This document shows positions 5,981 to 50,215 of a stretch of 50,215 bases of DNA, one piece after another. The translations under genes were made by a program, and so were the position numbers. The stretch comes from Bacteroidota bacterium (GTDB lineage: Bacteria; Bacteroidota; Bacteroidia; Flavobacteriales_D; Sanyastnellaceae), in assembly GCA_027593035.1 (NCBI GenBank), contig JAQCJQ010000003.1:1-50215 (forward strand), given 5' to 3'. The notes beneath the pieces were generated by a model that saw nothing but the letters and a program-made list of their open reading frames with translations, was not told the origin of the DNA and made no database searches. Each line of letters starts with the position of its first letter. The stretch's first letter is position 1.

Positions 5981-8900
5981 ATGGCAAATACAAAGCGTTA
6001 TTGGTCCGGACTGGACGAACTCCACGAGACGGAAGCATTCAAAACCATTCAGGAACACGAGTTCCCTGAATCGAAATCTGTCGATGAATTCCTGAGCGAT
6101 GAGCGCTTGGAATCCACCCATACGGGACGTCGAGATTTTTTGAAATTCATGGGATTCAGCCTAACGGCAGCTACGCTGGCGGCCTGTGAAACCCCGGTGG
6201 TCAAGAGCATCCCTTACACCAACAAGCCTGGAGAGGTGACCCCAGGAGTCGCGAATCATTATGCGAGTACGTATTATGATGGGCAGGACTTTATGAATGT
6301 ATTGGTGAAGACCCGTGAAGGACGCCCCATTTTTGTCAAGTCGAATGCCACAACGGGCATTGGTCGGGTCAACGCTCGAGTCAATGCGTCCGTCATGTCG
6401 TTGTACGATAGCGCAAGATTACCAGGCCCAACACGCGGCGGTGAAGCGTCTAGTTGGGAGAGCATTGATGCAGCCGTTCAGCAGGGATTGTCAGGAGCAG
6501 GCCGCAAGGTGTTGTTGACCAACACGGTGTTGAGTCCCTCCCTTTTGCGTTCCATTGAGACGTTGAAAGCCAACGCAGGCGTGGAGCACGTGGCATACGA
6601 TGCCGTTGATTATGGCGCTTTCAGAACTGCAGCGAAGTTGGATTTCGGGATCAATAGTTTCCCCTCCTACCAATTCGATATGGCTGAGACGGTTGTGACC
6701 ATTGGGGCAGATTTCCTCGGGACTTTTGGCGACTCCATCTTCTATGGAGAGCGATGGGCCAAGACACGTCGACCGGAGAACGGTTGGATGTCGAGATTGC
6801 ATGCATTCGAAACCAACATGAGTTTGACGGGTTCGAATTCGGACTACCGCACCATGGTGAAGCCTTCTGAGCAAGGCAAGGTGGCCGCGGCTTTATTGGC
6901 GGCTATTTCAGGAAAGACAGCATCCAACGGATTGTCCGATGTTACCAATGCGGCCATTGCCAAAGCGGCGGCTGATTTGAAGAAGTCCGGAGCGAAAGCA
7001 ATGGTCTTAGCGGGCGCGAATGATTTGCCGACTCAACGGGTGGTCAATGCCATCAACGCGGCTCTTGGTTCGATAGGAACTACGGTTCGATTCGACAATG
7101 AGAAGAGCCTTTTCCAAGGCAACCAGGCGGCATTCGAACAATTGGTCGTTGACATGAACGCGGGCCAGGTCAGCACCTTGATCGTGAGTGATTGCAACCC
7201 AGCGTATGACGCAGCGAATGCGGATGCGTTCATTGCAGGATTGACCAAGGTCGGTACCAGCGTGAGCACAGCGATGGTTGCAGATGAAACAGCAAGCCGC
7301 TGTGGAATGATTGCACCGAATCATCACTGGTTGGAATCTTGGGGTGATTTGCAGATTGAGAGCAATCGCATTGACTTGGTTCAGCCAACCATTGCGCCCA
7401 TGTTCAACACCCGAGCTGCTGGACAAAGCTTTTTGACTTGGAGCAACAGCGATGGCGGCATGGATTGGTACACCTATTTGCGCTCAACTTACAACGGCAG
7501 CTATTCGGCTGACGCGATGTATACAGACGGGGCGTGGAATGAAGCCGTTCACAATGGTCACATGACCCTGGGTGATGGTGTCGCGGATGTGCCGGCCTAT
7601 ATCGGTGGAGATTTATCCGTCGAAATGAAAGCGTTGAATGGCCGCACAGGCGGTGCATTTGAATTGGCGCTTTATCAAAAGACGACGATGGGAGTGGGGC
7701 AGCATGCTGCCAATCCAATTTTGCAGGAGACGCCAGATCCCATTACGAAAGTGACCTGGGACAACTACGTCACCATGTCGCATTCCGATGTGGACGCGAT
7801 GGGCCTCAATGGATTCATTGGACAAGAAGCCCCCGCAAGCTTGGTGAAGGTATACGTCGGCGACACTTCCATGGAATTACCAGTTTTCCCGACACCAGGA
7901 CAAGCACCTGGAACGATTGGGATTGCCCTTGGTTATGGACGAGGAGCGAACGGTGAAAACATTGGCAAGGCGGCGTTCCAATCCGGTGAAAGCGGATCAT
8001 TTGACACCGATTTGGAAGGAAACTTGATTCCAGTTGGGGCCAACGCTTTCGGTTGGGCTCAATCCAACGGAACGCATGTGAACTATGCGCAATACGATGT
8101 GCGCGTTGAGGCAACGGGAGGAACGTATCCTTTGGCCTGCACCCAAATTCAGAATACGTTTATGGGTCGGGAAAGCATTGTGAAGGAAACAGACTTCACG
8201 AGTTATTTCTCTGAGCGCGATACCAAGAAGGGTTTGGCGTCTTGGAACAAGTTGATCACGTTGGGCGTTCACGAGGACGTCAACGCTGATGGCACTATTG
8301 ATGCCTTAGACAACAAGCCAACGGCTGCGTTTGACTTGTGGCATGAGCATGCGGTAGAGGAAGTGGGACACCGATGGGGCATGACCATTGACTTGACCAC
8401 GTGCACGGGCTGCAGTGGTTGCGTGACGGCTTGCCACATTGAAAACAACGTTCCGGTTGTTGGAAAGGATGAGGTGCGTCGTCACCGGGATATGCACTGG
8501 ATGCGCATTGACCGATTCTTCGCTTCAGACTACAGTTTGAAGAAAGGAGAAGAGGAAGGCACTGGCGTGATTGAGTCATACCGACGTATGGAGGATCCGG
8601 CGTTGAACCCGCAAACGGTTCACATGCCGATGATGTGCCAGCACTGCAACCACGCTCCATGTGAGACGGTTTGTCCAGTAGCGGCTACAACTCACTCGAA
8701 CGAAGGCCTGAACCAGATGACTTACAACCGGTGCATCGGAACCCGATATTGCGCAAACAACTGCCCATACAAGGTTCGACGCTTCAACTGGTTCAACTAC
8801 CCTGGCTACAAGAAGTTTGGCAACTTCAACCCCGCTCAAGACAGCTTGATGCGCATGGTGTTGAATCCAGACGTGACCGTGAGAAGCCGAGGTGTTATGG

Positions 8901-22139: not shown

Positions 22140-22155
22140 CACGCCTTAAGGCGTG
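22140..22155 (-). repeat. Palindrome spanning the stop codon of the DUF3299-like gene
   Basis: CACGCCTTAAGGCGTG is a perfect 16-base palindrome centred on the TAA stop; as RNA it forms a 6-bp GC-rich stem with a TTAA loop. There is no T run on the minus strand after it, so readthrough into the esterase gene is plausible. Confidence 0.6.
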
Positions 22156-22727
22156 TACTCAACGGCGCCGTCCAGAATGTAATTCATCTGGTAGACGTCA
22201 TCTGAGTTGAGTCGGAATTTGCCAGCAAACGTGAGGCGTTCATCCGTTTGGTACACCCGGGGAGATTTGCCCGTGAAGCGCAAATCCACAACGGATTCCG
22301 GCCCCGCGCCACCGCAGAAAAAGCAATTCGCAAACGGATAGCGACTCAACACATAAAAGTCTTCATCGAGGTCAACCGGAATCATGTAGCCCGTGATATA
22401 CACGTCTTGACCTTCGAGGTCTTCGATGCTCTGGCCAAAGGTGGGTTTCCAGTAATAGGCATCGAGTTCTTCGACATAAACGTCTTTGAATTCAACATCC
22501 TCCAAACTGCGCCACGTCAATTCTTCCCAGCCCGTCGCAGGAACTGTTGCAGCCATGGGGACAGCTTCACGATCCTGACTGGCGTTGCGCAGGGTGGTGG
22601 TCAGCTGCACAGTTTCATCGCTCGGATGACAGAAGGAACTGAAATCGACAACACACAAGGCGGATAAGGCGATGAGTCCCGCCATCCAAGACGAGCGGAG
22701 TATAGAATTCGGTTTTGAGTGCATCAT
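22146..22727 (-). CDS. DUF3299-like exported protein, third gene of an ABC transporter operon
   Basis: 193 residues. A hydrophobic N-terminal segment (about 12-28) suggests export or a membrane anchor. The C-terminal half carries the family pattern: GQDVYITGYMIP, then a Cys-rich ANCFFCGGAGPESVV motif (about 135-149). This is typical of DUF3299-like proteins, which are often encoded beside MacB/LolD-like ABC transporters; the three cysteines could bind metal or be redox active (inference). Its ATG overlaps the permease stop (ATGA). It may act as the extracytoplasmic partner of the transporter. In Vibrio a comparable zinc-related operon (zrg) is known to me, but the link here is only by analogy. 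Confidence 0.75.
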   Translation of the reverse strand: MMHSKPNSILRSSWMAGLIALSALCVVDFSSFCHPSDETVQLTTTLRNASQDREAVPMAATVPATGWEELTWRSLEDVEFKDVYVEELDAYYWKPTFGQSIEDLEGQDVYITGYMIPVDLDEDFYVLSRYPFANCFFCGGAGPESVVDLRFTGKSPRVYQTDERLTFAGKFRLNSDDVYQMNYILDGAVEYTP

Positions 22728-23905
22728 GGAGAATCAGAAAGAGTGCGGGAGATGTCCATCCTGAGGGCCGAAATGCCCGGAATTGCGGCAGCAACCAGCC
22801 CGACAAAGATAGCCAAGCCGACGAGAGCACCTTCAGCGGTGAGCAAGCCCAGCGACTCCCAGTCGTACCGGAACTTATCGGCCACCAATTGGGCCAAGAG
22901 CACCATGCCTCCACGACTCAATAATAGGCCCAAGATGGCGCCTCCCAAACTGAGTAGCCCGCCTTCCAAAAGCAAGGAAACGTACAATCCACGTGGCGAA
23001 GCGCCCATGGTGCGCATCAGGGCCAATTCGTAACGACGCGCCAGTAAGCTGTCGTAGACGGAGATGAAAATGCTGGCAAAACTCAAGAGCATGATCAGCC
23101 CAGCAATCATGCGCAAGGTGTTCATGCCGATGCCGAAATTTTGGGTGAGGCGATTGATTTCGATGGAAGGCAAGGCCACTTGCATGTTCGTTTCTCGGAT
23201 GACATTGGGGATGGTCAGCACGGCCAAAGGATTGCGCTTTTTGAGCAATACAGCGGTGATTTCACGGTCGGCATCGAGGACATCACCGTCGTCACCATGG
23301 ACCTGCCAGATGGTTTCAATGTTGCACAAAATCAACTGGTCCATGACGGAACGACTTTCCTCCATGATTCCGACCACCACAAACGTTTTGTCCGTGTGCA
23401 CGTCCGTTTCGTCTTGCAATCCGTGCGCGCTGAAGAAGGTGTCTCCGACTTGAAGACCGTCCGTAGCAGCGACCTTGGATCCCACGACGACCTCAAAGGG
23501 CAGTTCCCACCACTCGCCGGATTGTAGGGTGGCATCATAATGCTGGGGGTAGGCCAGAGTGCTTCCCACAATCCGGAATCCGCGGTAATTGTCTCCGTAT
23601 GCGAGCGGAATGCCCTCAGCGATGTACGGGTGGCGGATCACTTTTTCCGCGTCCGCTAGACGGATATTACCGGTGGGGGCGTCGACGTGGTAGACGTTGG
23701 CCAAGATCAATTGCAGCGGACTGCCTTTGGCGCCAAGCACCAAGTCAATGTCTTGAATGTTGCGCTCGAACGTGTCACGCAATTGCTTTTCGGACAGCAT
23801 CAAAAGGCTCACCATGCCCACTCCGAAAGCCAGAAGAATCAAACTCAAAGCGGTTTGGAGCTTCTTCGCTCCCAAATTCTTCCAGGCGATGTAGAGCCAA
23901 TTCAT
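22724..23905 (-). CDS. ABC transporter permease, FtsX/MacB-like
   Basis: 393 residues. An N-terminal membrane helix (about 15-37), a long extracytoplasmic domain (about 40-265) and three C-terminal helices (about 270-292, 320-345, 360-380) give the four-helix MacB/LolCE/FtsX layout. The segment ARRYELALMRTMGASPRGLY (about 302-321) is the conserved coupling motif of these permeases. Such transporters act mechanically on the envelope side. Start and stop overlap the neighbouring genes by four bases each (ATGA), so the ATPase, permease and DUF3299-like proteins are probably made in fixed ratio. Confidence 0.88.
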   Translation of the reverse strand: MNWLYIAWKNLGAKKLQTALSLILLAFGVGMVSLLMLSEKQLRDTFERNIQDIDLVLGAKGSPLQLILANVYHVDAPTGNIRLADAEKVIRHPYIAEGIPLAYGDNYRGFRIVGSTLAYPQHYDATLQSGEWWELPFEVVVGSKVAATDGLQVGDTFFSAHGLQDETDVHTDKTFVVVGIMEESRSVMDQLILCNIETIWQVHGDDGDVLDADREITAVLLKKRNPLAVLTIPNVIRETNMQVALPSIEINRLTQNFGIGMNTLRMIAGLIMLLSFASIFISVYDSLLARRYELALMRTMGASPRGLYVSLLLEGGLLSLGGAILGLLLSRGGMVLLAQLVADKFRYDWESLGLLTAEGALVGLAIFVGLVAAAIPGISALRMDISRTLSDSP

Positions 23906-24555
23906 GATGCAAGAATGGCTAAAGATTCCAACTCAACCTTGCGGTCATAGCGGTCTTTGAGCCGCTGGTCGTGGGTGACGATGATCAGGGTCGCTCCCGC
24001 TTGAGCAGCTTGTTCTTCCAATAAATTCAACACGGCTTGCGTAGACCGATCGTCCAGCGCGCTCGTGGGTTCATCCGCCAAGAGCACTGCGGGGCGGTGC
24101 ACCAATGCCCGCGCGATACTGGCTCGTTGTTGCTCACCTACGCTCAAATCTTGAGGTCGGCTTTTGGCTTTGTGTCCGACACCCAAGGTGTCGAGCAATG
24201 ATTGGGCGTGATCGAGATCAGCGGTTTGGCCGGTGAGGAAATACGGCAGCGCCAAGTTTTCCAAAACGGACAGGCTTTGAACGAAATGCGAACGCTGAAA
24301 GACCAGACCTACGTGAGTTCCTCGAAAACGATCCAAGTTCTTTCCTGTGAGCAATCCCAGGTCTTGTCCGTTGATGAGGACCTTTCCTTGGGCGGGCTTT
24401 AAAATGCCACAAAGCAGATGAAGGAGCGTCGTCTTGCCACATCCAGAATCACCCAACAAGAGCAGTTGTTCGCCTGTTGGACAGGACAAATCAGGGAACG
24501 TCAATTCCGGCGAATCAGCGCTGTAGCGAAAGGACAGGTTGGAAGTCTCAATCAT
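23902..24555 (-). CDS. ABC transporter ATP-binding protein, LolD/MacB-like
   Basis: 217 residues. Walker A GDSGCGKTT (about 38-46), ABC signature LSVGEQQRASIARAL (about 137-151), Walker B VLLADEPTSALDD (about 157-169) and the switch His in VTHDQ are all present. It is the first gene of the three-gene operon with the permease and the DUF3299-like protein. The ATG at 24555 is used because it precedes the typical NLSFRYS opening; the frame stays open further upstream without homology. A near-consensus -7 (TAAATTCG on the minus strand, 24563-24570) lies just before it. Confidence 0.92.
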   Translation of the reverse strand: MIETSNLSFRYSADSPELTFPDLSCPTGEQLLLLGDSGCGKTTLLHLLCGILKPAQGKVLINGQDLGLLTGKNLDRFRGTHVGLVFQRSHFVQSLSVLENLALPYFLTGQTADLDHAQSLLDTLGVGHKAKSRPQDLSVGEQQRASIARALVHRPAVLLADEPTSALDDRSTQAVLNLLEEQAAQAGATLIIVTHDQRLKDRYDRKVELESLAILAS

Positions 24556-24612: not shown

Positions 24613-25038
24613 GTGAATTTTAAACAACGTTTGCTTCGATACGGTGCAGGAGTCATTATTGGCGTGCTGATGAGTGTCGTCATTTTTAGCGGAAGAGGAT
24701 GCAGTGATTGGTTGCCAGAAAAACGCATCAAATCCCGCATTCAATTGGATGGTATCGAGCTGGATGCGGTCGTTTCCTGTGCCATTCGGTGTTGGTAAGA
24801 AGACGAACAAGGAAAACCCTCTCCTTTGGAAGGTTGGTTGCTCGATGCGGAAATTGACTGGTCGGTCAGCGGACCGAGGGAGACTCCACAACGATACGTT
24901 TTCAACCTGCCTGCTGAAGCTCCATTGCAATCGGTGGAATGTCGATTCTCACAGAGCAGTGGCTTGATCACGAAGGCCGTTTTTCGAATCGACGCCGATC
25001 GTTGTCAGTGCGCTGATTCAGCGCACTCCGCCGAGTAG
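24613..25038 (+). pseudogene. Small membrane-anchored protein gene interrupted by one in-frame TAA
   Basis: One frame runs from a GTG at 24613 to a TAG at 25036-25038 with a single internal TAA (24796-24798). The first 61 codons encode a basic N terminus, a membrane segment (GAGVIIGVLMSVVIF) and CSDWLPEKRIKSRI. After the stop, the same frame continues EDEQGKPSPLEGWLLDAEID and then TPQRYVF, without any frameshift. The two halves together (about 141 residues) resemble a short Bacteroidota protein family with a similar N-terminal anchor and a KxxPxRY-type motif; I cannot name it. Nonsense mutation, sequencing error or two separate peptides are all possible. It is divergent from the ABC operon and convergent with the sugar dehydrogenase. 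Confidence 0.6.
25007..25027. repeat. Perfect 10-1-10 palindrome between convergent genes
   Basis: AGTGCGCTGA, T, TCAGCGCACT, GC-rich, just inside the 3' end of the split gene and 17 bases past the end of the sugar dehydrogenase gene. It would form a strong hairpin in either transcript and could act as a bidirectional 3' end signal, though neither side has a T run. Confidence 0.65.
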
Positions 25039-25043
25039 CCCAA

Positions 25044-26627
25044 TTATTGCCGGACGACGGCCAATCGACCGCGCAACGGAGCTTCCGATCCAACCGTCCA
25101 CGCCTCCACAATATAGGTTCCAGGAACCATCCCGGTCGTGAACCAGGAGTAAGGTGATGAGGCAAAATTCAAGGAGGCATCGTGCACGACCCGCCCACTT
25201 GAATCAACAATGCGCAACCGTTCCAGCACCGCATTGTCGCCCAAATTCAGGAACACCTCTGCGCCGACCTCAACGGGGTTGGGTGAGAACAACAGGGATT
25301 CAGGTCTGGGCTCATTGTCCGTGACATCGTCCGGATCGTATTGCATGCGATACACGTGCTGCAAGGTGCACAAGTACAATTCACCCGCATTGTCTTCACT
25401 CATCGCGAAGCGGTATTCATATGAGCCTTGTTCCCACGATGCAAACCCTCCGGGGACTTGGATATTCAATGGAGCCTCGAGCCAAGTGCCATCGGCTTGC
25501 TCGGTCAGCGTCCAGAAACGGACATTCTCAAAACCGCAATAGTCCGTGAACACATAGCTTCCATACAACGTTGGGATGGGACCACGGTAACGATACCCTC
25601 CAATCACGGAGCACCAGCCTTGATCATGCGGGTACGAGAAAATGGGCAGTTCCAAGGTCACGCCTTCCGGAATGCAATCCACGGTTGGCTCATAACACAT
25701 CAGTCCTTCCATCAGGCGCCAACCGAAGTTCAACCCTCCCGCGGAGCTGGCAGGTTCGAAGTTGATTTCTTCCCAATCCACCTCACCGACATCGCCAATG
25801 AATTTGTCGCCCGTCAACCGATCGAAACTCCACCGCCAAGGGTTGCGAAATCCCACCGCCCAAATTTCATTGAGCGCTTCGGGATTCCCCACAAACGGAT
25901 TGTCCTCCGGAATGGTGTAAGGAGCCAATCCGTGCACCTCGATGCGCAACATTTTGCCCAACAACGTTTCTAGATTCTGTCCATTGCCGATGGGGCCATG
26001 ATCGTCTCCGCCACTTCCTCCGCCGGTTTCACCCGTACCCGTTCCACCACCATCTCCCGTGGACAAATACAACAGGCCATCCAAGGGGCCGAAATGCAGC
26101 TGTCCACCGTTGTGACCTCGTGCGGGCTGCTCCAACTCCAACACTTCAAACCATTGGTCAACATCTGCCACAGTATGCGCTGGATTGGTTCCGAAACAGA
26201 GCAAGCGCTCATCGATGATGCTTCCTGTGCCATCGGGGCGGTAGCCATTGTACATCACATAGAAGAGTCCGTTTTCTTCAAAATTGGGATCCAGGATGAG
26301 GTCATTGAGACCTTGCTCACTGCTGATTCCGTAATCCACAAGGTCCAAACCCGAGTCACTCAAATCGAGAAACGGTTCTTCACGCACTTCGCCTGTCGAT
26401 TCATCGAACCACATCACCAAGCCATTGTGACACAAGATGAGCAAATTCGTTTCGTCGATGGCATGCGAAGCGGGCCGTACCCCAACCGGAGACTCGGCCG
26501 CCACCAATCGCTCGGCGACAATGGTTTCAGGAGTGACTTGAGATGCAAGGGGACGAGCGATCACCAGCGCCAAAACGAATGGGATCCATGCACGACTGGA
26601 TGAAATCAGGGAATGAATGAATCGCAT
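25044..26627 (-). CDS. Secreted PQQ-type glucose/sorbosone dehydrogenase-like protein with T9SS sorting domain
   Basis: 527 residues. A signal peptide (about 12-30, ending ASQ) is followed by a six-bladed propeller of the glucose/sorbosone dehydrogenase family. Visible motifs: EQGLNDLILDP; RGHNGGQLHFGP with the likely catalytic His172; STGDGGG (about 189-195); a Gly-rich loop (194-211); LLGKMLRIEVHG; GFRNPWRWSFD with Arg261-Asn262; DVGEVDWEEIN; and GGLNFGWRLMEG. The C-terminal ~80 residues (from FSPNPVEVG) are a T9SS type A sorting domain. It likely oxidises a sugar at the cell surface with PQQ; whether every PQQ ligand is kept cannot be decided by eye. The start at 26627 precedes the signal peptide. 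It is divergent from the pentaheme cytochrome gene. Confidence 0.85.
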   Translation of the reverse strand: MRFIHSLISSSRAWIPFVLALVIARPLASQVTPETIVAERLVAAESPVGVRPASHAIDETNLLILCHNGLVMWFDESTGEVREEPFLDLSDSGLDLVDYGISSEQGLNDLILDPNFEENGLFYVMYNGYRPDGTGSIIDERLLCFGTNPAHTVADVDQWFEVLELEQPARGHNGGQLHFGPLDGLLYLSTGDGGGTGTGETGGGSGGDDHGPIGNGQNLETLLGKMLRIEVHGLAPYTIPEDNPFVGNPEALNEIWAVGFRNPWRWSFDRLTGDKFIGDVGEVDWEEINFEPASSAGGLNFGWRLMEGLMCYEPTVDCIPEGVTLELPIFSYPHDQGWCSVIGGYRYRGPIPTLYGSYVFTDYCGFENVRFWTLTEQADGTWLEAPLNIQVPGGFASWEQGSYEYRFAMSEDNAGELYLCTLQHVYRMQYDPDDVTDNEPRPESLLFSPNPVEVGAEVFLNLGDNAVLERLRIVDSSGRVVHDASLNFASSPYSWFTTGMVPGTYIVEAWTVGSEAPLRGRLAVVRQ

Positions 26628-26644
26628 GAGAAGAGGTTGCAGAC

Positions 26645-26652
26645 TAACTTTG
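26645..26652 (+). promoter_or_regulatory. -7 element (TAACTTTG) for the pentaheme cytochrome
   Basis: Perfect TAnnTTTG on the plus strand, 55 bases before the cytochrome ATG. It faces the minus-strand element at 26658-26665 across 5 bases, so the two promoters overlap. Confidence 0.4.
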
Positions 26653-26657
26653 ATGGA

Positions 26658-26665
26658 CAAAGATA
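26658..26665 (-). promoter_or_regulatory. -7 element (TATCTTTG) for the sugar dehydrogenase
   Basis: Perfect TAnnTTTG on the minus strand, 30 bases before the ATG at 26627. Together with the plus-strand element it forms an inverted CTTTG/CAAAG pair. Confidence 0.45.
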
Positions 26666-26707
26666 TTGAGTCCGCACCTGAACCCCTTAGCAACAGTTGT
26701 TAAGTCC

Positions 26708-28666
26708 ATGAATCGTCAAACTACTTTCGCCTTGCTTATGCCCCTTATGGGCATTGGATTGGTGCTTCTGATTTCAGGAGCGGCAGATCCGGAGGTGGCT
26801 TTTCATGGAGACGATGCCGCTGAAATGCGCTGGAGGATGGGAGAGCTTTGTACGGAACAAGGCGTGTTCTTCACGGGTTCGGGGAATTGCGTGAACTGCC
26901 ACGCTCCCGATCCAGAGGGAGAAGCCCTAGTGGATGCCGATGGGCACACGGTGAGTCCGGTGGTAGACTGGCAAGCTACCATGATGGCCAACAGCGCCAA
27001 AGATCCTTTTTGGCGTGCCAAAGTGTCCCATGAAGGGTTGGTCAATCCCAATCACCGCGAGTCCATAGAGAACCTATGCACCGCGTGCCACGCCCCGCAG
27101 GGCTTTCATGAAGCGCATTTGACGGGCAAAGTCGGTCCCAATGGCTACACCATGGACCAGTTGCTCGAAGATGAATTGGGCTTGGATGGCATCGGATGCA
27201 CCGCTTGCCATGGGATTGACGACGATGCGTTGGCGGGTCGCTCCAATGGAGACTTGCCGATCAACCCGGACAATGTCGCATGGGGTGGGTTTGAGAATCC
27301 ATGGGATGGATTGATGAGCGGACAAACGGGATTCAATCCGGTCTACGGGGAGCACATGCGCAACAGTGAAGTGTGCGCCAGTTGCCACTCGCTCTATAAC
27401 CACACACAAGACTTGTCAGGCGAAGAGACCGGGCAGGTTTTCTTCGAACAAACGACGTATTTGGAATGGGTGAATTCCGCTTACAATGCGGAAAATGTCC
27501 AATGCCAATCGTGCCACATGCCGCTTGTTGAAGGCGGTGCGATTGCAGCAACTCAACCCAATTGGTTGTTCAACCAGCGATTTGGAAAACACCACTTGGT
27601 CGGGGGCAATGCCTTCATGCTCAAGTTGATGCGAGACCAGTCGGTGGCGCTGGAGTTGAGTGCGACGACCGTCCAATTCGATAGCACCATTGCGCGCACA
27701 GAGCGCCTGCTTCAAACGCAAACGGCCGAATTGGAAGTGCGTCAATTGGCCTCTGAATTGGGCGAATGGGAGTTTGAGGTGGAGCTGCGGAACTTGGCCG
27801 GCCACAAGTTTCCAAGTGGTTATCCTTCGCGCATCGCATTCGTTGAATTTGAACTTCAGGACGCAGAAGGGATCACCTTATTCCACAGTGGAAAATGGAC
27901 GCCAGAAACGGGTGTAATGGGAAGGGATGAAACGTGGGAACCGCACTGGGAAACCATCGACTCGGAAGACCAGGTCCAGGTGTATGAAATGGTCATTGGG
28001 GATGTGACTGGAGCGCCAACCCAGGTGCTTGAACGTGCCTCCGTATTGCTCAAGGACAACCGCCTTCCTCCCCGTGGTTTTTTCACGAACCATGCGGCCT
28101 ATGATACGGTGCAATTTGGACCGATGGCAGCGCTCGATGCGAACTTCAATCGCGCCGAATCCTCCAATGATGAGGGTTCAGGGTCCGACCGCTTGACCTA
28201 CCGGATTCCCAATGATCTGAATTCTGCAACGGTGCAAGCCCACGTCACTTTGCATTATCTCTCAGTCCCCGCGCGCTGGGTCCAGGACATGTTTGAATGG
28301 GCAGAGGATTCCGAAGAAATTACGGCCTTCCAGTCCATGTTCGAATCAGCAGACCGAACTCCGGTGGTGGTGGCTTCATCCTCGGCATGGGGCTATCGCG
28401 GATTTGACCAGGAGGAATTGGACTGGCGTTTAGCACCAAGTGCCATCGGGTCGAACCAGCTCCTTCGTCTCATCCCCCCGGGAGAGTCCAATCCGCTCGA
28501 GGTCGTTTTGGTGGATGCCCGTGGACGAACCGTCCGCTCTGTGACGCCCTATGCGGCGCTTCAAGGGTTTGATGTGTCTGACTTGGCGAGCGGTGCCTTC
28601 TTCGTCCGGGTGCGGACAGAAACGGGATGGAAGGTGCTCAAAGGAATGAAGTTGAACGGACAGTAA
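26708..28666 (+). CDS. Pentaheme cytochrome c with T9SS-like C-terminal domain
   Basis: 652 residues. A signal anchor or peptide (about 5-25) is followed by a cytochrome domain with five CxxCH motifs: CVNCH (61), CTACH (124), CTACH (164), CASCH (223) and CQSCH (266). Additional His residues (for example KHH near 293) could be distal ligands. A beta-rich domain (about 345-560) follows, and the last ~75 residues (LRLIPPGESNP, VVLVDARGR, GAFFVRV, VLKGMKLNG) have the shape of a T9SS type A sorting domain. I do not recognise the exact family; it recalls cytochrome c554-like proteins. It is divergent from a secreted sugar dehydrogenase with which it may exchange electrons (inference). Confidence 0.82.
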   Translation: MNRQTTFALLMPLMGIGLVLLISGAADPEVAFHGDDAAEMRWRMGELCTEQGVFFTGSGNCVNCHAPDPEGEALVDADGHTVSPVVDWQATMMANSAKDPFWRAKVSHEGLVNPNHRESIENLCTACHAPQGFHEAHLTGKVGPNGYTMDQLLEDELGLDGIGCTACHGIDDDALAGRSNGDLPINPDNVAWGGFENPWDGLMSGQTGFNPVYGEHMRNSEVCASCHSLYNHTQDLSGEETGQVFFEQTTYLEWVNSAYNAENVQCQSCHMPLVEGGAIAATQPNWLFNQRFGKHHLVGGNAFMLKLMRDQSVALELSATTVQFDSTIARTERLLQTQTAELEVRQLASELGEWEFEVELRNLAGHKFPSGYPSRIAFVEFELQDAEGITLFHSGKWTPETGVMGRDETWEPHWETIDSEDQVQVYEMVIGDVTGAPTQVLERASVLLKDNRLPPRGFFTNHAAYDTVQFGPMAALDANFNRAESSNDEGSGSDRLTYRIPNDLNSATVQAHVTLHYLSVPARWVQDMFEWAEDSEEITAFQSMFESADRTPVVVASSSAWGYRGFDQEELDWRLAPSAIGSNQLLRLIPPGESNPLEVVLVDARGRTVRSVTPYAALQGFDVSDLASGAFFVRVRTETGWKVLKGMKLNGQ

Positions 28667-28709: not shown

Positions 28710-28815
28710 TTACCTTGTTTGGGGGATTGTACGGCAGGCCTTCTGAGCGCCAAATTTGCCATCCTTTTTGGTGCTAGATTCATTCCTTTTTTCGAAGAAA
28801 ATTCGATTCATTCGT

Positions 28816-31110
28816 ATGCTGCGATTCCCTTGTTCATTGTCCTCTTTTGTTTGGGTTGTCATGGCATTTTCATGCCTGAGCCAAAGCGCTGTGGGGCAAA
28901 TGATGCAGGAGGAGGACATGCTGCCTGACAGCTTACGTAGCATCATACAAGATTGGCATCACCTTCCGGAAGCCACCATTTCAGCGGTCGGTTTGGCCGC
29001 AGGTGCGGAAGGAGTCGATGAGGTTCCCGGTGCTTTGCACGTGATCCGCCCAGAGGTGCTGCAGCGTTTTTCCTACAGCGACCCCTTGCGCGCCCTGCAA
29101 ACCGTCAGCGGAGTGAACATCCAAGAAGAAGATGGATTCGGCTTACGGCCGAACATTGGGCTGCGCGGTTCGGGTTCGGAGCGCTCGGCGAGAATCACAT
29201 TGATGGAAGACGGGGTGCTGATTGCCCCTGCTCCATACACCGCGCCAGCCGCCTACTATTTCCCTTCCATTGCCCGCATGGAATCCATTGAGATTTTGAA
29301 AGGGAGTAGTCAAATCGCTTTTGGTCCACAGACGTCAGGCGGTGCGATCAACATGGTGACGCCCGATATCCCCGATTCCAGTTTAGCGGGATTGTTTCGA
29401 ACTGAGATGAGCGCTTTCGGTGGCCGGGTAGACCATGCTCGTGTGGGGTCTTCTTGGAATCACCGATGGGGAACATTTGGTGTGATGGCGGAATATTTGC
29501 AATTGGGGAGTGATGGTTTTAAGGAACTAGCTTCGGGTGACCCGACTGGTTTTTCAAAAACGGATCGCCTCATGAAATTCAGGTGGACTTCACCCCTTGA
29601 ATCCAAATTGCAGCAATCGGTTGAATGGAAAACGGGCCAGGTCAACGAGGACGCCCAGGAGACGTATGTTGGTCTGACGGATGCGGATTATCAACTCAAC
29701 CCCTTTCAACGCTACGCGGCAACGGCTCAGGACCGAATGCTCGCCAAGCAGCGACAAAATGTACTCAAGCACCGGGCTGAATTGGGGGCACGCTGGTCCA
29801 TCGAAACGGACATCTACCGCACCGAATTTGAGCGCAATTGGTACAAATTGGATCGGGTGATCGACTCCACGGGGGTGGCTCATGGCTTGGCTGATTTGTT
29901 TCAGCAAGGAGCCGATGTTGATGCTCTGAATTTGCTGAAATCGGTCGACACGCCCGATGGGGCCGGTTTGGATTTGAAGGCCAACAACCGCTCATACTAT
30001 GCTGAGGGAGTTCAACACCGGGGCGTGATCAAGTTGAGAAGTCAAAATGGTGCTGCCCACCAAGTCGTATACGGGATGCGGATCCATCGGGATGGCGTGG
30101 ATCGATTGCAATGGCGGGATCGTTATCAACTTCAAGCAGGCGCCATGACCATGACGGAACCGGGTGCGTTGGGCTCAGCTGGAAACCGAGAAGAGATGGC
30201 CACCGCTGTGGCGTCGTTTGTTCGAGGAACTATGCGTACAGGAATGCTGACGTGGACGCCGGGCGTGCGGATGGAAACCATGGCGTTTGAACGATGGAAT
30301 TACGACGCTTCGGATCCGGACCGCCAAGGCGATGCCGATTACCAGCGCAATGCATTGTCTGTGTGGCTTCCGGGGTTGGGTTTGCACGCGAACCTTTCTC
30401 CAGTGTGGACGGCCTTCACGGGTCTTCACAGAGGATTCATTCCTCCAGGATCTTCACCGGAAGCCAAGGCGGAAACCAGTGCCAATTGGGAGTTGGGGGT
30501 GCGATGGAACAGCAACGGATTCAGTGGTCAATTGGTGGCATTCCGAAATGCCTACAAGGATCTTCTGGGAGCGGATTTGGCGGCAAGTGGTGGAACAGGA
30601 TCAGGGGATCTGTTCAATGGGGGAAGCGCGTTGACCAAAGGGGTGGAAGTCGAAGCCGCCTGCAATGCACTGCAACATCGTTGGGAGAAGTGGTCCCTGC
30701 CGATTCAGGTCTCCTACACATGGACAGACGCCCGTTTCTCCTCGTTTTTTGAAAGCGAATTCGATGCGTGGGGAACGGTGGAAACAGGGGACGCCTTGCC
30801 TTATTTGGCCCCGCATCAGGGGAGTATCATGGCCTCATTGGTTGGTCCTAAAATCGCCCTGAACACGTCTTTTCGGTGTGTTGGAGCGATGCGAACGATT
30901 GCTGGACAGGGAGGGCTGATTGCATCGGAAAGTACCGATGTCGTCAAGGTCTTGGACGCGGCCTTCAGTTGGTCGGTTAACCAGCGTGTTCAGTTCGAAC
31001 TTGGAGTGAACAACGTGCTGGACGCCACATACATCGTCGCACGTCGGCCCGCGGGAATCCGCCCGGGCATGCCGCGATTGGTGAGGACGGGATTGCGTCT
31101 GACGTTTTAA
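28816..31110 (+). CDS. TonB-dependent outer-membrane receptor, FecA-like
   Basis: 764 residues. A signal peptide (about 8-28) is followed by a plug domain (about 45-170) and a 22-strand barrel ending in LRLTF with the terminal Phe. The plug contains RPNIGLRGSGSERSARIT and LMEDGVLIAPAPYTAP, typical of the ferric-citrate receptor (FecA) branch, and NNVLDATYIVARRP near the C terminus. There is no N-terminal carboxypeptidase-like domain and no evident FecR-signalling domain. The substrate is probably a ferric siderophore or citrate complex, supported by the Fur-like palindrome upstream. The ATG at 28816 gives a proper signal peptide; an upstream TTG does not. Convergent with the proline dehydrogenase gene (1-base gap). 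Confidence 0.9.
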   Translation: MLRFPCSLSSFVWVVMAFSCLSQSAVGQMMQEEDMLPDSLRSIIQDWHHLPEATISAVGLAAGAEGVDEVPGALHVIRPEVLQRFSYSDPLRALQTVSGVNIQEEDGFGLRPNIGLRGSGSERSARITLMEDGVLIAPAPYTAPAAYYFPSIARMESIEILKGSSQIAFGPQTSGGAINMVTPDIPDSSLAGLFRTEMSAFGGRVDHARVGSSWNHRWGTFGVMAEYLQLGSDGFKELASGDPTGFSKTDRLMKFRWTSPLESKLQQSVEWKTGQVNEDAQETYVGLTDADYQLNPFQRYAATAQDRMLAKQRQNVLKHRAELGARWSIETDIYRTEFERNWYKLDRVIDSTGVAHGLADLFQQGADVDALNLLKSVDTPDGAGLDLKANNRSYYAEGVQHRGVIKLRSQNGAAHQVVYGMRIHRDGVDRLQWRDRYQLQAGAMTMTEPGALGSAGNREEMATAVASFVRGTMRTGMLTWTPGVRMETMAFERWNYDASDPDRQGDADYQRNALSVWLPGLGLHANLSPVWTAFTGLHRGFIPPGSSPEAKAETSANWELGVRWNSNGFSGQLVAFRNAYKDLLGADLAASGGTGSGDLFNGGSALTKGVEVEAACNALQHRWEKWSLPIQVSYTWTDARFSSFFESEFDAWGTVETGDALPYLAPHQGSIMASLVGPKIALNTSFRCVGAMRTIAGQGGLIASESTDVVKVLDAAFSWSVNQRVQFELGVNNVLDATYIVARRPAGIRPGMPRLVRTGLRLTF

Positions 31111-42056: not shown

Positions 42057-42129
42057 TTAGTACAGTTTTTGAGGTTTCAATTCTTGTTACGTGCAATTTA
42101 ACGCATTACATCGCCGTTAACTTTGCTTT

Positions 42130-48306: not shown

Positions 48307-50215
48307 ATGGGGAATATGCGTGCCATAAGGTTGGGAAAAATTCAAGGCACGCTGTTGTGGGTCGCATTGGTTTTTTGCCATTCGACGTTGTGGTCTCAAG
48401 GCAATGGAGGCGCGTCCGCGGGTGGAGACTCACTGGCCATTGATTTGCCTTTCCCTTTTGGAGGGGAAGATGCCTTCAACCCAACAGAAAGCCCATCGGG
48501 TTTTGACTTCGCTTGGCCAAGCAACATCCAATATGAGATGGTGTACGATGAGGCAACCGGGCTTTATAGCATCCGGCAGCTCATCGGGGATACTTTGGAG
48601 TTTCGCCCAACGACTTTTCTGACCCTGGATGAATTTCTGGAATACGATATGGAGGGAAACCTCACAGAGTACTGGAATGATCTGCAATTAGAAGATGATG
48701 AAGCCGATCGGGCCTTCGCCCCGAAATTGACGGTGGACAGCAAGTTGTTTGAGTCCATTTTTGGCAGCAATGAAATTGAAATCAAACCTCAAGGTTCAGC
48801 GGAACTGACTTTTGGTTTGAACGTGTCCAAAACGGAAAACCCGCGCATTCCAGAGCGCCAGCGGCAAATCACCACCTTTGATTTCGACCAGCGAATCCAG
48901 CTGAATATTGGCGGGAAAATCGGTGACAAGATCGAACTGGGAACCAATTACAATACCGAGGCCCTGTTCGATTTTGAGAACCAAATGAACATTGGGTTTC
49001 AAGGAGACGAGGACGATATCCTGAAGAATTTCGAAGCGGGTCACATCTCCATGCCGCTGGCGGGCACCTTGATCACAGGCAGCCAGAGTTTGTTTGGTGT
49101 GAAACTGGAAACGCAGTGGGGACGGCTCTACAACACCACCGTTTTATCGCAGCAAAAGGGTGAGCGGAAGGAAATTGAAGTGGAGGGGGGGGCACAAACT
49201 CAAGAGTTTGACATTCGAGCAGACGATTACGAAGCCAACCGGCACTATTTCCTGTCCCAGTTCTTCCTCAATCAATACGATGCGGCGATGCGGAGCCTTC
49301 CCGTTCCGAATTCGGGAGTCAACATTACTCGAATTGAAGTGTGGGTGGTCAATACCCAAGCCAACACGCAAGACGTGAGGAACGTGATTGGATTCACGGA
49401 CATGGGGGAGCACCCGAATTACATGTCTTCCAACTTGCCGGTAGCCGATTTGACGGACGACCCCGACTTGGTCATTACCGAACAATTGAACCCGAGCAAC
49501 CAGAACAATGAGCTGTACGACCTCATGATTGAGGATCCGAATGTTTTGGGATTCACCGGTGCCAACGCGGCCATTGCTTCGTTGAATGCCGGCATGACGC
49601 AAGGGATTCACTATGAACGCGTGGGGAATGCACGAAAGCTGGCACCGACGGAATACTCCTTCAATTCGAGGTTGGGATTCATCTCCTTGCGCCAGGCGTT
49701 GAACAATGCCGAAGTCTTGGCTGTCGCCTATGAGTATACCTTGAACGGAGAATCTTACCAGGTCGGCACGTTGTCCCAAGATGGTTTCAGCGCACCGGAT
49801 GCCCTCATGCTCAAAATGTTGAAATCCAGCATTACGCAATTGCGATTGAGCAATGGGGACCAAGCGCCACTTTGGAAAATCATGATGAAGAACGTGTACT
49901 CGATGCAAGCGTTCGGATTGAGTCAAGAGAATTTCAGGCTAAGCATTTGGTACAATGACCCGGCCACCGGGGTGGATTTGAATTACATCCCAAGAAATCC
50001 ATTGGACGGAACGTTGCTGCTCCAATTGCTAGGATTGGACCGCCTGGACATCAACGGCATGAGCCAGCCGGATGGGGTTTTTGATTTTGTCGACAATGCT
50101 GCGACGTCGGGGGGAACCATTCACAGCCAAAACGGCCGCATTTTCTTCCCTTCTGTGGAGCCATTTGGATCCAATCTGAGAAATGAAATCGAAGCGCGGG
50201 TGGACGATGCGAATT
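48307..50215 (+). CDS. sprA: T9SS outer-membrane translocon protein SprA (Sov), N-terminal part (3' truncated by window edge)
   Basis: The frame stays open from the ATG at 48307 to the end of the window (636 codons visible; SprA proteins are usually about 2300-2400 residues). A signal peptide (about 15-31, ending LWSQG) leads into SprA-typical segments: PQGSAELTFGLNVSKTENP, then RQRQITTFDFDQRIQLNIGG, KIELGTNYNTEALFDFENQM, and AGHISMPLAGTLITGSQSLFG. SprA forms the very large outer-membrane channel of the type IX secretion system, which exports the several CTD-tagged proteins of this window. An ATG nine bases further (48316), preceded by GGGGAA, is an equally possible start. maeB-ruvA-sprA is a familiar Bacteroidota gene order. 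Confidence 0.95.
   Translation, partial: MGNMRAIRLGKIQGTLLWVALVFCHSTLWSQGNGGASAGGDSLAIDLPFPFGGEDAFNPTESPSGFDFAWPSNIQYEMVYDEATGLYSIRQLIGDTLEFRPTTFLTLDEFLEYDMEGNLTEYWNDLQLEDDEADRAFAPKLTVDSKLFESIFGSNEIEIKPQGSAELTFGLNVSKTENPRIPERQRQITTFDFDQRIQLNIGGKIGDKIELGTNYNTEALFDFENQMNIGFQGDEDDILKNFEAGHISMPLAGTLITGSQSLFGVKLETQWGRLYNTTVLSQQKGERKEIEVEGGAQTQEFDIRADDYEANRHYFLSQFFLNQYDAAMRSLPVPNSGVNITRIEVWVVNTQANTQDVRNVIGFTDMGEHPNYMSSNLPVADLTDDPDLVITEQLNPSNQNNELYDLMIEDPNVLGFTGANAAIASLNAGMTQGIHYERVGNARKLAPTEYSFNSRLGFISLRQALNNAEVLAVAYEYTLNGESYQVGTLSQDGFSAPDALMLKMLKSSITQLRLSNGDQAPLWKIMMKNVYSMQAFGLSQENFRLSIWYNDPATGVDLNYIPRNPLDGTLLLQLLGLDRLDINGMSQPDGVFDFVDNAATSGGTIHSQNGRIFFPSVEPFGSNLRNEIEARVDDAN

Follow-up and report, generated by a model that had tools for sequence, protein, structure and literature searches.

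A lineage-restricted divergent gene pair of Bacteroidota encoding a GSDH-family propeller and a pentaheme cytochrome, both probable surface proteins

The locus and its genes

The window considered here is a whole stretch of 50,215 nucleotides (contig JAQCJQ010000003.1 of assembly GCA_027593035.1, Sanyastnellaceae), corresponding to contig C25 of a genome that comprises 2.2 Mb in 172 contigs and is 93.6% complete. It contains two divergently oriented genes, one for a GSDH-family propeller (hereafter GSDH) and one for a pentaheme c-type cytochrome; both were confirmed at the coordinates given in the original prediction, with a PF07995 match of 90 bits on the former and five CxxCH motifs in the latter. 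With the TTG starts of the open reading frame (ORF) list the two frames overlap; the likelier starts are ATG 26627 (minus strand) for the GSDH and ATG 26708 (plus strand) for the cytochrome, separated by an ATG-to-ATG gap of 80 bp. Computation shows that the two genes, divergently paired and sharing a promoter-like element, are inherited together, and that each product carries export and sorting signals, here those of the type IX secretion system (T9SS). The relevant features are as follows.

25044..26627, minus strand: six-blade GSDH-family propeller with a C-terminal T9SS-type domain, 527 aa from the ATG (PF07995, 90 bits)
26541..26627, minus strand: predicted GSDH signal peptide, presumably cleaved before the invariant Gln30 (N-termini and Q30)
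26112..26114, minus strand: His172, counterpart of sGDH His144 (27/27 pair and 11/11 g28 sequences)
25842..25847, minus strand: Arg261-Asn262, counterpart of sGDH Arg228-Asn229 (27/27 and 11/11 sequences)
25047..25286, minus strand: sorting-domain-like C-terminal region of the GSDH, residues 448-527 (TIGR04183, 16.8 bits over 448-508, cut-off 23)
26645..26665, no single strand: promoter-like boxes TAACTTTG and CAAAGATA that face each other, with TAnnTTTG on both strands (pattern counts across pair loci)
26708..28666, plus strand: pentaheme c-type cytochrome with a C-terminal T9SS domain, 652 aa from the ATG (five CxxCH, matches to 5ze8)
26888..26902, plus strand: heme motif 1, CVNCH (invariant CxxCH)
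27077..27091, plus strand: heme motif 2, CTACH (invariant CxxCH)
27197..27211, plus strand: heme motif 3, CTACH (invariant CxxCH)
27374..27388, plus strand: heme motif 4, CASCH (invariant CxxCH)
27503..27517, plus strand: heme motif 5, CQSCH (invariant CxxCH)
28469..28642, plus strand: predicted sorting domain (T9SS type A) in the cytochrome tail (TIGR04183 at 23.5 bits against a cut-off of 23; VIA Z 8.4 to 8glk_D)
28756..31110, plus strand: TonB-dependent receptor adjoining the cytochrome, optional and outside the core pair (Pfam)

The loci closest to the window come mostly from Flavobacteriales metagenome bins, and the pair-bearing flavobacterial group is known mainly from metagenomes. One metagenome bin that carries the pair (L099) is titled Chryseobacterium gleum; the title looks wrong, as G140:C1, taken to be the same contig, is placed in the family of the window.

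Conservation of the pair

Within the genus, an orthologue of the cytochrome is found in 19 of 22 genomes (at least 66% identical; in G004 as two fragments, 80 and 58% identical), and a GSDH of the window type likewise in 19 of 22; G007, G015, and G020 lack both genes. G007 and G020 are 95% and 88% complete, and assembly gaps may lie behind the missing pair. In G015, a deletion of approx. 3.3 kb (approx. window positions 25190-28521) removed the greater part of both genes, with the flanks intact; at the scar (L086, contig C9, approx. 7994-8417), approx. 145 bp of each 3' end remain side by side. GSDHs of the window type, which score above 540 bits (305 being where the next class begins), occur in 39 of 299 genomes of the order, all belonging to one family, and at E ≤ 1e-120 in two of 395 genomes of the phylum, both from the same family.

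The divergent adjacency is seen in all 19 genus loci (in L052, L059, and L068 a contig end or gap truncates one of the two) and in all nine loci of genera g18, g19, g21, g29, and g30. The question of whether the two genes are conserved as neighbours, which the original prediction had raised as a check, receives a positive answer: they adjoin in 28 of the 28 loci examined outside g28, i.e., in six genera of one family. Against a strict pair speak the 11 loci of genus g28, in all of which the GSDH stands without this cytochrome. A wider-family cytochrome is encoded elsewhere in 10 of the 11 g28 genomes, while none was found at E ≤ 1e-20 in G288, which is 61% complete; four such cytochromes (L262-L265) fall outside the clade of the pair. 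At the g28 site itself, L216 has genes for a CarboxypepD_reg TonB receptor and a DUF4249 protein (Pfam) in place of the cytochrome, the other ten loci of the set (L209-L218, L221) have genes of like size and placement, and a relative of the TonB receptor at 28756 follows in eight of the 11. In two g21 loci (L202, L203), tandem cytochromes of the pair type adjoin a single GSDH.

In a cytochrome tree of 135 tips, the 27 that lie beside a window-type GSDH form, together with two tandem copies, one clade (29 tips, support 1.0), and among the remaining 106 tips one (L071) has a GSDH beside it, of another type. The tips represent 132 distinct sequences, the three repeats all being without a GSDH. 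The tree omitted loci of repeat genomes (L001-L030, L087-L102, L172-L201, L242) and cytochromes shorter than 560 aa or scoring under 500 bits, hence L068 (G004); L095, L099, L101, and L102 were taken as the same records as contigs of G073, G140, G058, and G204, respectively, and counted once. Of the distinct cytochromes that do not adjoin a GSDH (102), 96 come with 1 kb or more of sequence on the 5' side and 78 with that much on both sides; in the rest, a neighbour could be hidden. The L071 case (G034), in which a GSDH of another lineage stands in tandem with a related cytochrome, was considered as an independent second instance and rejected as a private case or coincidence, because a cytochrome lies within a flank of up to 1.5 kb in only one of 18 genomes with that GSDH type. 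As regards lower-scoring HHIP-like GSDHs, none of 20 regions taken from among the matches listed contains the cytochrome in its flanks, which vary in length and are short where some contigs end.

The 80-bp gap between the genes contains TAACTTTG...CAAAGATA, i.e., TAnnTTTG on each strand, facing each other; we take this motif to be the Bacteroidota -7 box. The arrangement is present in 17 of 19 genus loci, and in the two exceptions (L058, L066) the minus-strand box is intact and the plus-strand box altered. Across 294,658 bases from 18 genus loci, the pattern has 16 occurrences, all in the gap and each in a different locus; in the window it is found in the gap and once more at 42118, whereas 100 first-order Markov sequences of equal length contain it 0.03 times on average. 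It appears in four of the nine other pair loci and in none of the 11 g28 loci. From these counts, the facing boxes look like a shared promoter-like element of the pair.

Could the two genes have remained neighbours through slow rearrangement alone, without a shared function? The block is largely syntenic throughout the family (small ORF, ATP-binding cassette (ABC) genes, GSDH, Pro_dh, peptidase). On the GSDH side, the ABC genes and, for the most part, the small ORF are conserved to about the same degree as the cytochrome, also in g28; therefore, some of the conservation is due simply to block synteny. The loss of the cytochrome beside the g28 GSDH, or its failure ever to be gained there, also fits this explanation. 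However, the genes are absent together in three of 22 genus genomes, the single deletion in G015 hit both and spared the flanks, the facing boxes are specific to the gap, and the pair stays together where the neighbours on the cytochrome side differ (another gene set in L208, an inserted gene in L205, and a TonB receptor that is optional in the genus). Slow rearrangement as the whole explanation appears quite improbable. Co-presence and co-absence, clade-specific adjacency, and the shared promoter-like element support the view that the two genes are more than chance neighbours.

The propeller and its cofactor

PF07995 matches the GSDH at 90 bits against a cut-off of 25. In the profile search, the nearest solved protein is HHIP (2.2e-33), followed by 3a9g (4.9e-16), YliI (2g8s, 3.1e-12), 5min (2.3e-9), and 1c9u (3.9e-9). 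With the predicted model, HHIP is matched by Foldseek at 3.7e-16 and by VIA with Z 28.4 (7pgm; root-mean-square deviation (rmsd) 3.7, 318 residues aligned), whereas sugar dehydrogenases that use pyrroloquinoline quinone (PQQ; sGDH/Asd) reach a Z of about 20-23 and AA12 enzymes a Z of 17-18. The comparisons by fold use low-confidence models (one each for the GSDH and the cytochrome, built from 10 and 15 sequences, with a mean predicted local distance difference test (pLDDT) score of 63 and 67, respectively), and in the GSDH model the segments around the PQQ site (168-172, 236-264, and 278-342) fall below 50.

The His172 and Arg-Asn pair that had been proposed as catalytic held up, being invariant in the 10-row alignment and, after alignment with E. 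coli YliI, in 27 of 27 pair sequences and 11 of 11 g28 sequences, 38 in all. (This comparison excluded GSDHs under 350 aa and repeat loci.) By these residues the predicted centre is a GSDH-type catalytic centre. The same residues are found in all 21 HHIP-like and 24 L071-like GSDH sequences compared (the latter including some fragments of the same gene) and are therefore a signature of the wider family rather than of PQQ binding. Of the PQQ carboxylate ligands of sGDH, Arg408 alone has a counterpart, which is Arg in 24 of the 27 pair GSDHs and Lys in 10 of the 11 g28 ones. Where sGDH has Arg406, 26 of 27 carry Glu; Lys377 likewise lacks a counterpart (the region reads D-x-C-G, with no Lys at 362-365), and the Ca loop is DVGE instead of EHGP in all 38 sequences. 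TIGR03606 scores 29.5 bits, far from its cut-off of 434.55.

PqqC was matched in none of 40 relatives and in none of 295 class genomes above the cut-off (weak matches in three of them lie below it); since no control genome was matched in either search, this absence is suggestive only. In the genome of the window, PqqE scores 49.5 bits against a cut-off of 381.35. PqqB-like matches below the cut-off were rejected as a sign of PQQ synthesis, no other PQQ-synthesis gene having been noticed beside them in the loci examined. These PqqB-like proteins (L168 8013-8978, L169 3888-4856, L171 1-630) score up to 106 bits with TIGR02108 (cut-off 245) and have a signal-peptide-like start where complete; in two of the three loci (L169, L171), a cytochrome-peroxidase-like gene, recognised by eye, lies beside the PqqB-like one. 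An exported propeller could take PQQ from the environment.

For the label of PQQ-type sugar dehydrogenase given in the original prediction, the result on the PQQ ligands is mixed: PF07995, His172, Arg-Asn, and the Arg408 position agree with it, but the Lys377 and Arg406 positions, the Ca loop, HHIP as nearest structure, and PqqC (unmatched, with no matching control) do not, and the propeller is not established as such an enzyme. It might instead be a non-redox, HHIP-like surface protein that binds glycans or another ligand or acts in a hydrolase-like manner, the cytochrome having other partners and the pair being only co-regulated. Profile (2.2e-33 vs. 3.9e-9 for 1c9u), Foldseek, and VIA comparisons all rank HHIP first, the carboxylate ligands and Ca loop are altered, and the g28 GSDH occurs without the cytochrome. 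Nonetheless, HHIP has His-Asp where the window family keeps Arg-Asn, together with His, in 38 of 38 sequences. Moreover, the changed ligands are compatible with PQQ, because it is bound by AA12 enzymes, which lack Lys377 and differ in the Arg and in the Ca loop (PMC6881789, PMC6881810). On balance, a non-redox propeller seems unlikely, while deserving serious attention.

The pentaheme cytochrome

The cytochrome has exactly five CxxCH motifs, all invariant in the 15-row alignment A1, and five are also present in every listed relative that is not cut by a contig end. Its Pfam matches are weak multiheme ones (PF22113 at 31.7 bits, barely above the cut-off of 30). In the profile search, the nearest solved protein is the T. 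tepidum pentaheme cytochrome c552 (5ze8, E 5.3e-7), with a GHKxPSGYP region of the cytochrome aligned to it; MccSep comes second among cytochromes (5e-4), and T9SS cargo domains match the tail. The model agrees with 5ze8 at 2.4e-11 by Foldseek and with a VIA Z of 19.6 (rmsd 3.6, 310 residues aligned). NF040886, the ExtKL equivalog, matches all 15 cytochromes weakly; the window cytochrome scores 24.2 bits against a cut-off of 250. From its five heme motifs and its predicted c552 fold, for which model confidence is low, the cytochrome is assignable to the pentaheme c552/ExtKL (PHC) family. Histidines outside the CxxCH motifs (108, 216, 295, 366, 413, and 462) are kept in 90-100% of the 135 tips, enough for bis-histidine ligation; the hemes are thus probably bis-histidine, although the individual ligand assignments are themselves inferred.

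Two relatives of the family are followed by a different partner: in L035 (9484-12222) and L041 (9074-11941), a protein of approx. 910-955 aa stands in place of the GSDH, its N-terminus resembling FG-GAP and its tail the T9SS type by eye.

Export signals

Both proteins have hydrophobic N-termini that by eye resemble signal peptides, as had been proposed. In the GSDH, Gln (Q30) follows the presumed cleavage site in 10 of 10 aligned members, which fits the expectation of the Bacteroidetes Q-rule (PMC5837995). The claim of a T9SS sorting domain on each protein fared unequally. The cytochrome scores 23.5 bits with TIGR04183 against a cut-off of 23 (27.8 bits in the genome search), passing it by 0.5 to 4.8 bits; all 15 cytochromes of A1 match at E ≤ 0.01, and residues 572-649 of its model resemble the T9SS cargo domain 8glk_D (VIA Z 8.4). 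By this profile and its signal peptide, it is a predicted T9SS type A cargo. The GSDH, in contrast, reaches only 16.7-16.8 bits, although in eight of 10 orthologues the match has E ≤ 0.01 (3.5e-7 in the best case) and the complete tails share, by eye, a PNP...G...G.Y pattern.

There are 63 TIGR04183 matches genome-wide, and the genome encodes the translocon protein SprA in three pieces (best 1231 bits). The N-terminal part of SprA lies at the end of the window (48505-50193, plus strand), and the remainder matches contig C67. From the signals on the two proteins, T9SS export of both to the surface looks probable.

Neighbouring genes

The TonB receptor at 28756 is the immediate neighbour of the cytochrome in 11 of the 19 genus loci, counting the window; it is absent in seven, and in one the contig ends. 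It was rejected as a third core part on account of these absences and its retention in G015, where the pair is gone. On the other side, a small conserved gene (24613-25038, plus strand) separates the ABC genes from the GSDH in most relatives. As an ORF it encodes approx. 125-165 aa with one N-terminal hydrophobic stretch; its frame in the window has an in-frame stop codon, which relatives such as L051 lack. Beyond it (22146-24555, minus strand) lie genes for an ABC ATPase, an FtsX-like permease, and a third protein, a layout resembling the zinc-regulated zrgBCE genes, which PMC9817125 describes as Zur-controlled.

These surroundings might suggest surface metal acquisition, in which the cytochrome, with the GSDH as electron source, would reduce or release a metal for TonB receptors, the ABC operon belonging to the same pathway. 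The frequent TonB neighbour, the zrgBCE-like layout, and the g28 site (a TonB receptor, a DUF4249 gene, and a second TonB receptor in L216, with like-sized genes elsewhere in g28) are consistent with this. However, the third gene (22146-22727) has no Pfam match and resembles DUF3299 by eye only, and the receptor is neither constant in the genus nor lost with the pair in G015. We consider a metal-acquisition locus very improbable.

Discussion

The pair is real and lineage-restricted, and its members are probable surface proteins. The most economical reading is that of a two-part surface redox module, in which the propeller oxidises its substrate via a quinone cofactor and passes electrons to the cytochrome; we give it a probability of roughly 0.42, i.e., it is favoured tentatively. 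According to this reading, the T9SS would carry both proteins over the outer membrane. There, the propeller, which has the catalytic His, Arg, and Asn of quinoprotein sugar dehydrogenases, would acquire a quinone as cofactor, either environmental PQQ or a different one, and oxidise a carbohydrate-like substrate. Electrons would then pass to the five-heme chain of the cytochrome, which might hand them on to an extracellular or membrane-located acceptor.

Several of the results described above weigh against such a module: the g28 GSDH without the cytochrome in all 11 loci, ABC genes and a small ORF about as constant as the cytochrome, the sub-threshold TIGR04183 score of the GSDH, HHIP rather than a quinoprotein as the closest solved structure, His and Arg-Asn shared with every other GSDH compared, the altered Lys377, Arg406, and Ca loop positions, the unmatched PqqC, and the low confidence of both models. 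The interpretation given in the original prediction is, overall, partly supported.

A bolder version would be an extracellular cytochrome conduit built by the T9SS, i.e., a nanowire-related pentaheme protein that would be exposed or put together extracellularly and receive its electrons from a dedicated dehydrogenase, likewise exported by the T9SS, with an environmental quinone cofactor. As the cofactor would be taken straight from the surroundings, neither PQQ synthesis nor import would be needed. A relation of T. tepidum c552 to the archaeal nanowire AvECN has been proposed (cited in PMC11976967). A nanowire structure is absent among the fold matches listed for the cytochrome model, which excludes nothing. 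Such a conduit is a long shot, which we regard as highly doubtful.

If the redox module is real, these Bacteroidota possess an enzyme-driven extracellular electron-transfer route built on the T9SS, and HHIP-like propellers of the GSDH type gain a testable electron acceptor. The pair hints at an undescribed oxidation of something outside the cell.

Comparison with known systems

Coupling of a dehydrogenase to a cytochrome and export by the T9SS are each known, as are both protein families; the T9SS-exported combination was not found described in the library searched. Literature searches on GSDH with T9SS and on multiheme with T9SS found no paper, and no title among the matches listed by further searches describes such a pair.

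With sGDH of A. calcoaceticus (1c9u) and YliI/Asd of E. coli (2g8s), the window GSDH shares the PF07995 propeller and the catalytic His and Arg-Asn, whereas it lacks counterparts of Lys377 and Arg406 and has a DVGE loop, a Gly-rich insertion, and a T9SS-type tail. HHIP is the nearest solved propeller by profile and fold, but its His-Asp aligns with the Arg-Asn of the window protein. The AA12 enzymes (CcPDH, TrAA12) are also PQQ propellers without Lys377, and in CcPDH a heme b domain is joined to the propeller (PMC6881789, PMC6881810). However, they are fungal and a weaker fold match, and the CcPDH heme is of type b, not c. GSDH and heme are likewise combined in one protein of the genome studied here, the GSDH of contig C55, which has an N-terminal CxxCH stretch. 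Such joining of the two within single proteins counts in favour of the redox module.

Five hemes are common to the window cytochrome, T. tepidum c552 (5ze8), Geobacter ExtKL, Gsu2801, and the PHC proteins of cable bacteria. In PMC11976967, ExtKL and Gsu2801 are grouped with the pentaheme cytochromes of cable bacteria, and the small cytochromes of this type are described as structurally homologous to c552. Unlike these proteins, the window cytochrome has a T9SS tail, falls in its own clade beside a GSDH, and scores far below the ExtKL cut-off. Its likeness to surface cytochromes of the MtrC/OmcA type consists of the PF22113 match just over the cut-off and the idea of electron transfer at the surface; in contrast to them, it has five hemes, not ten, and its route to the surface would be the T9SS.

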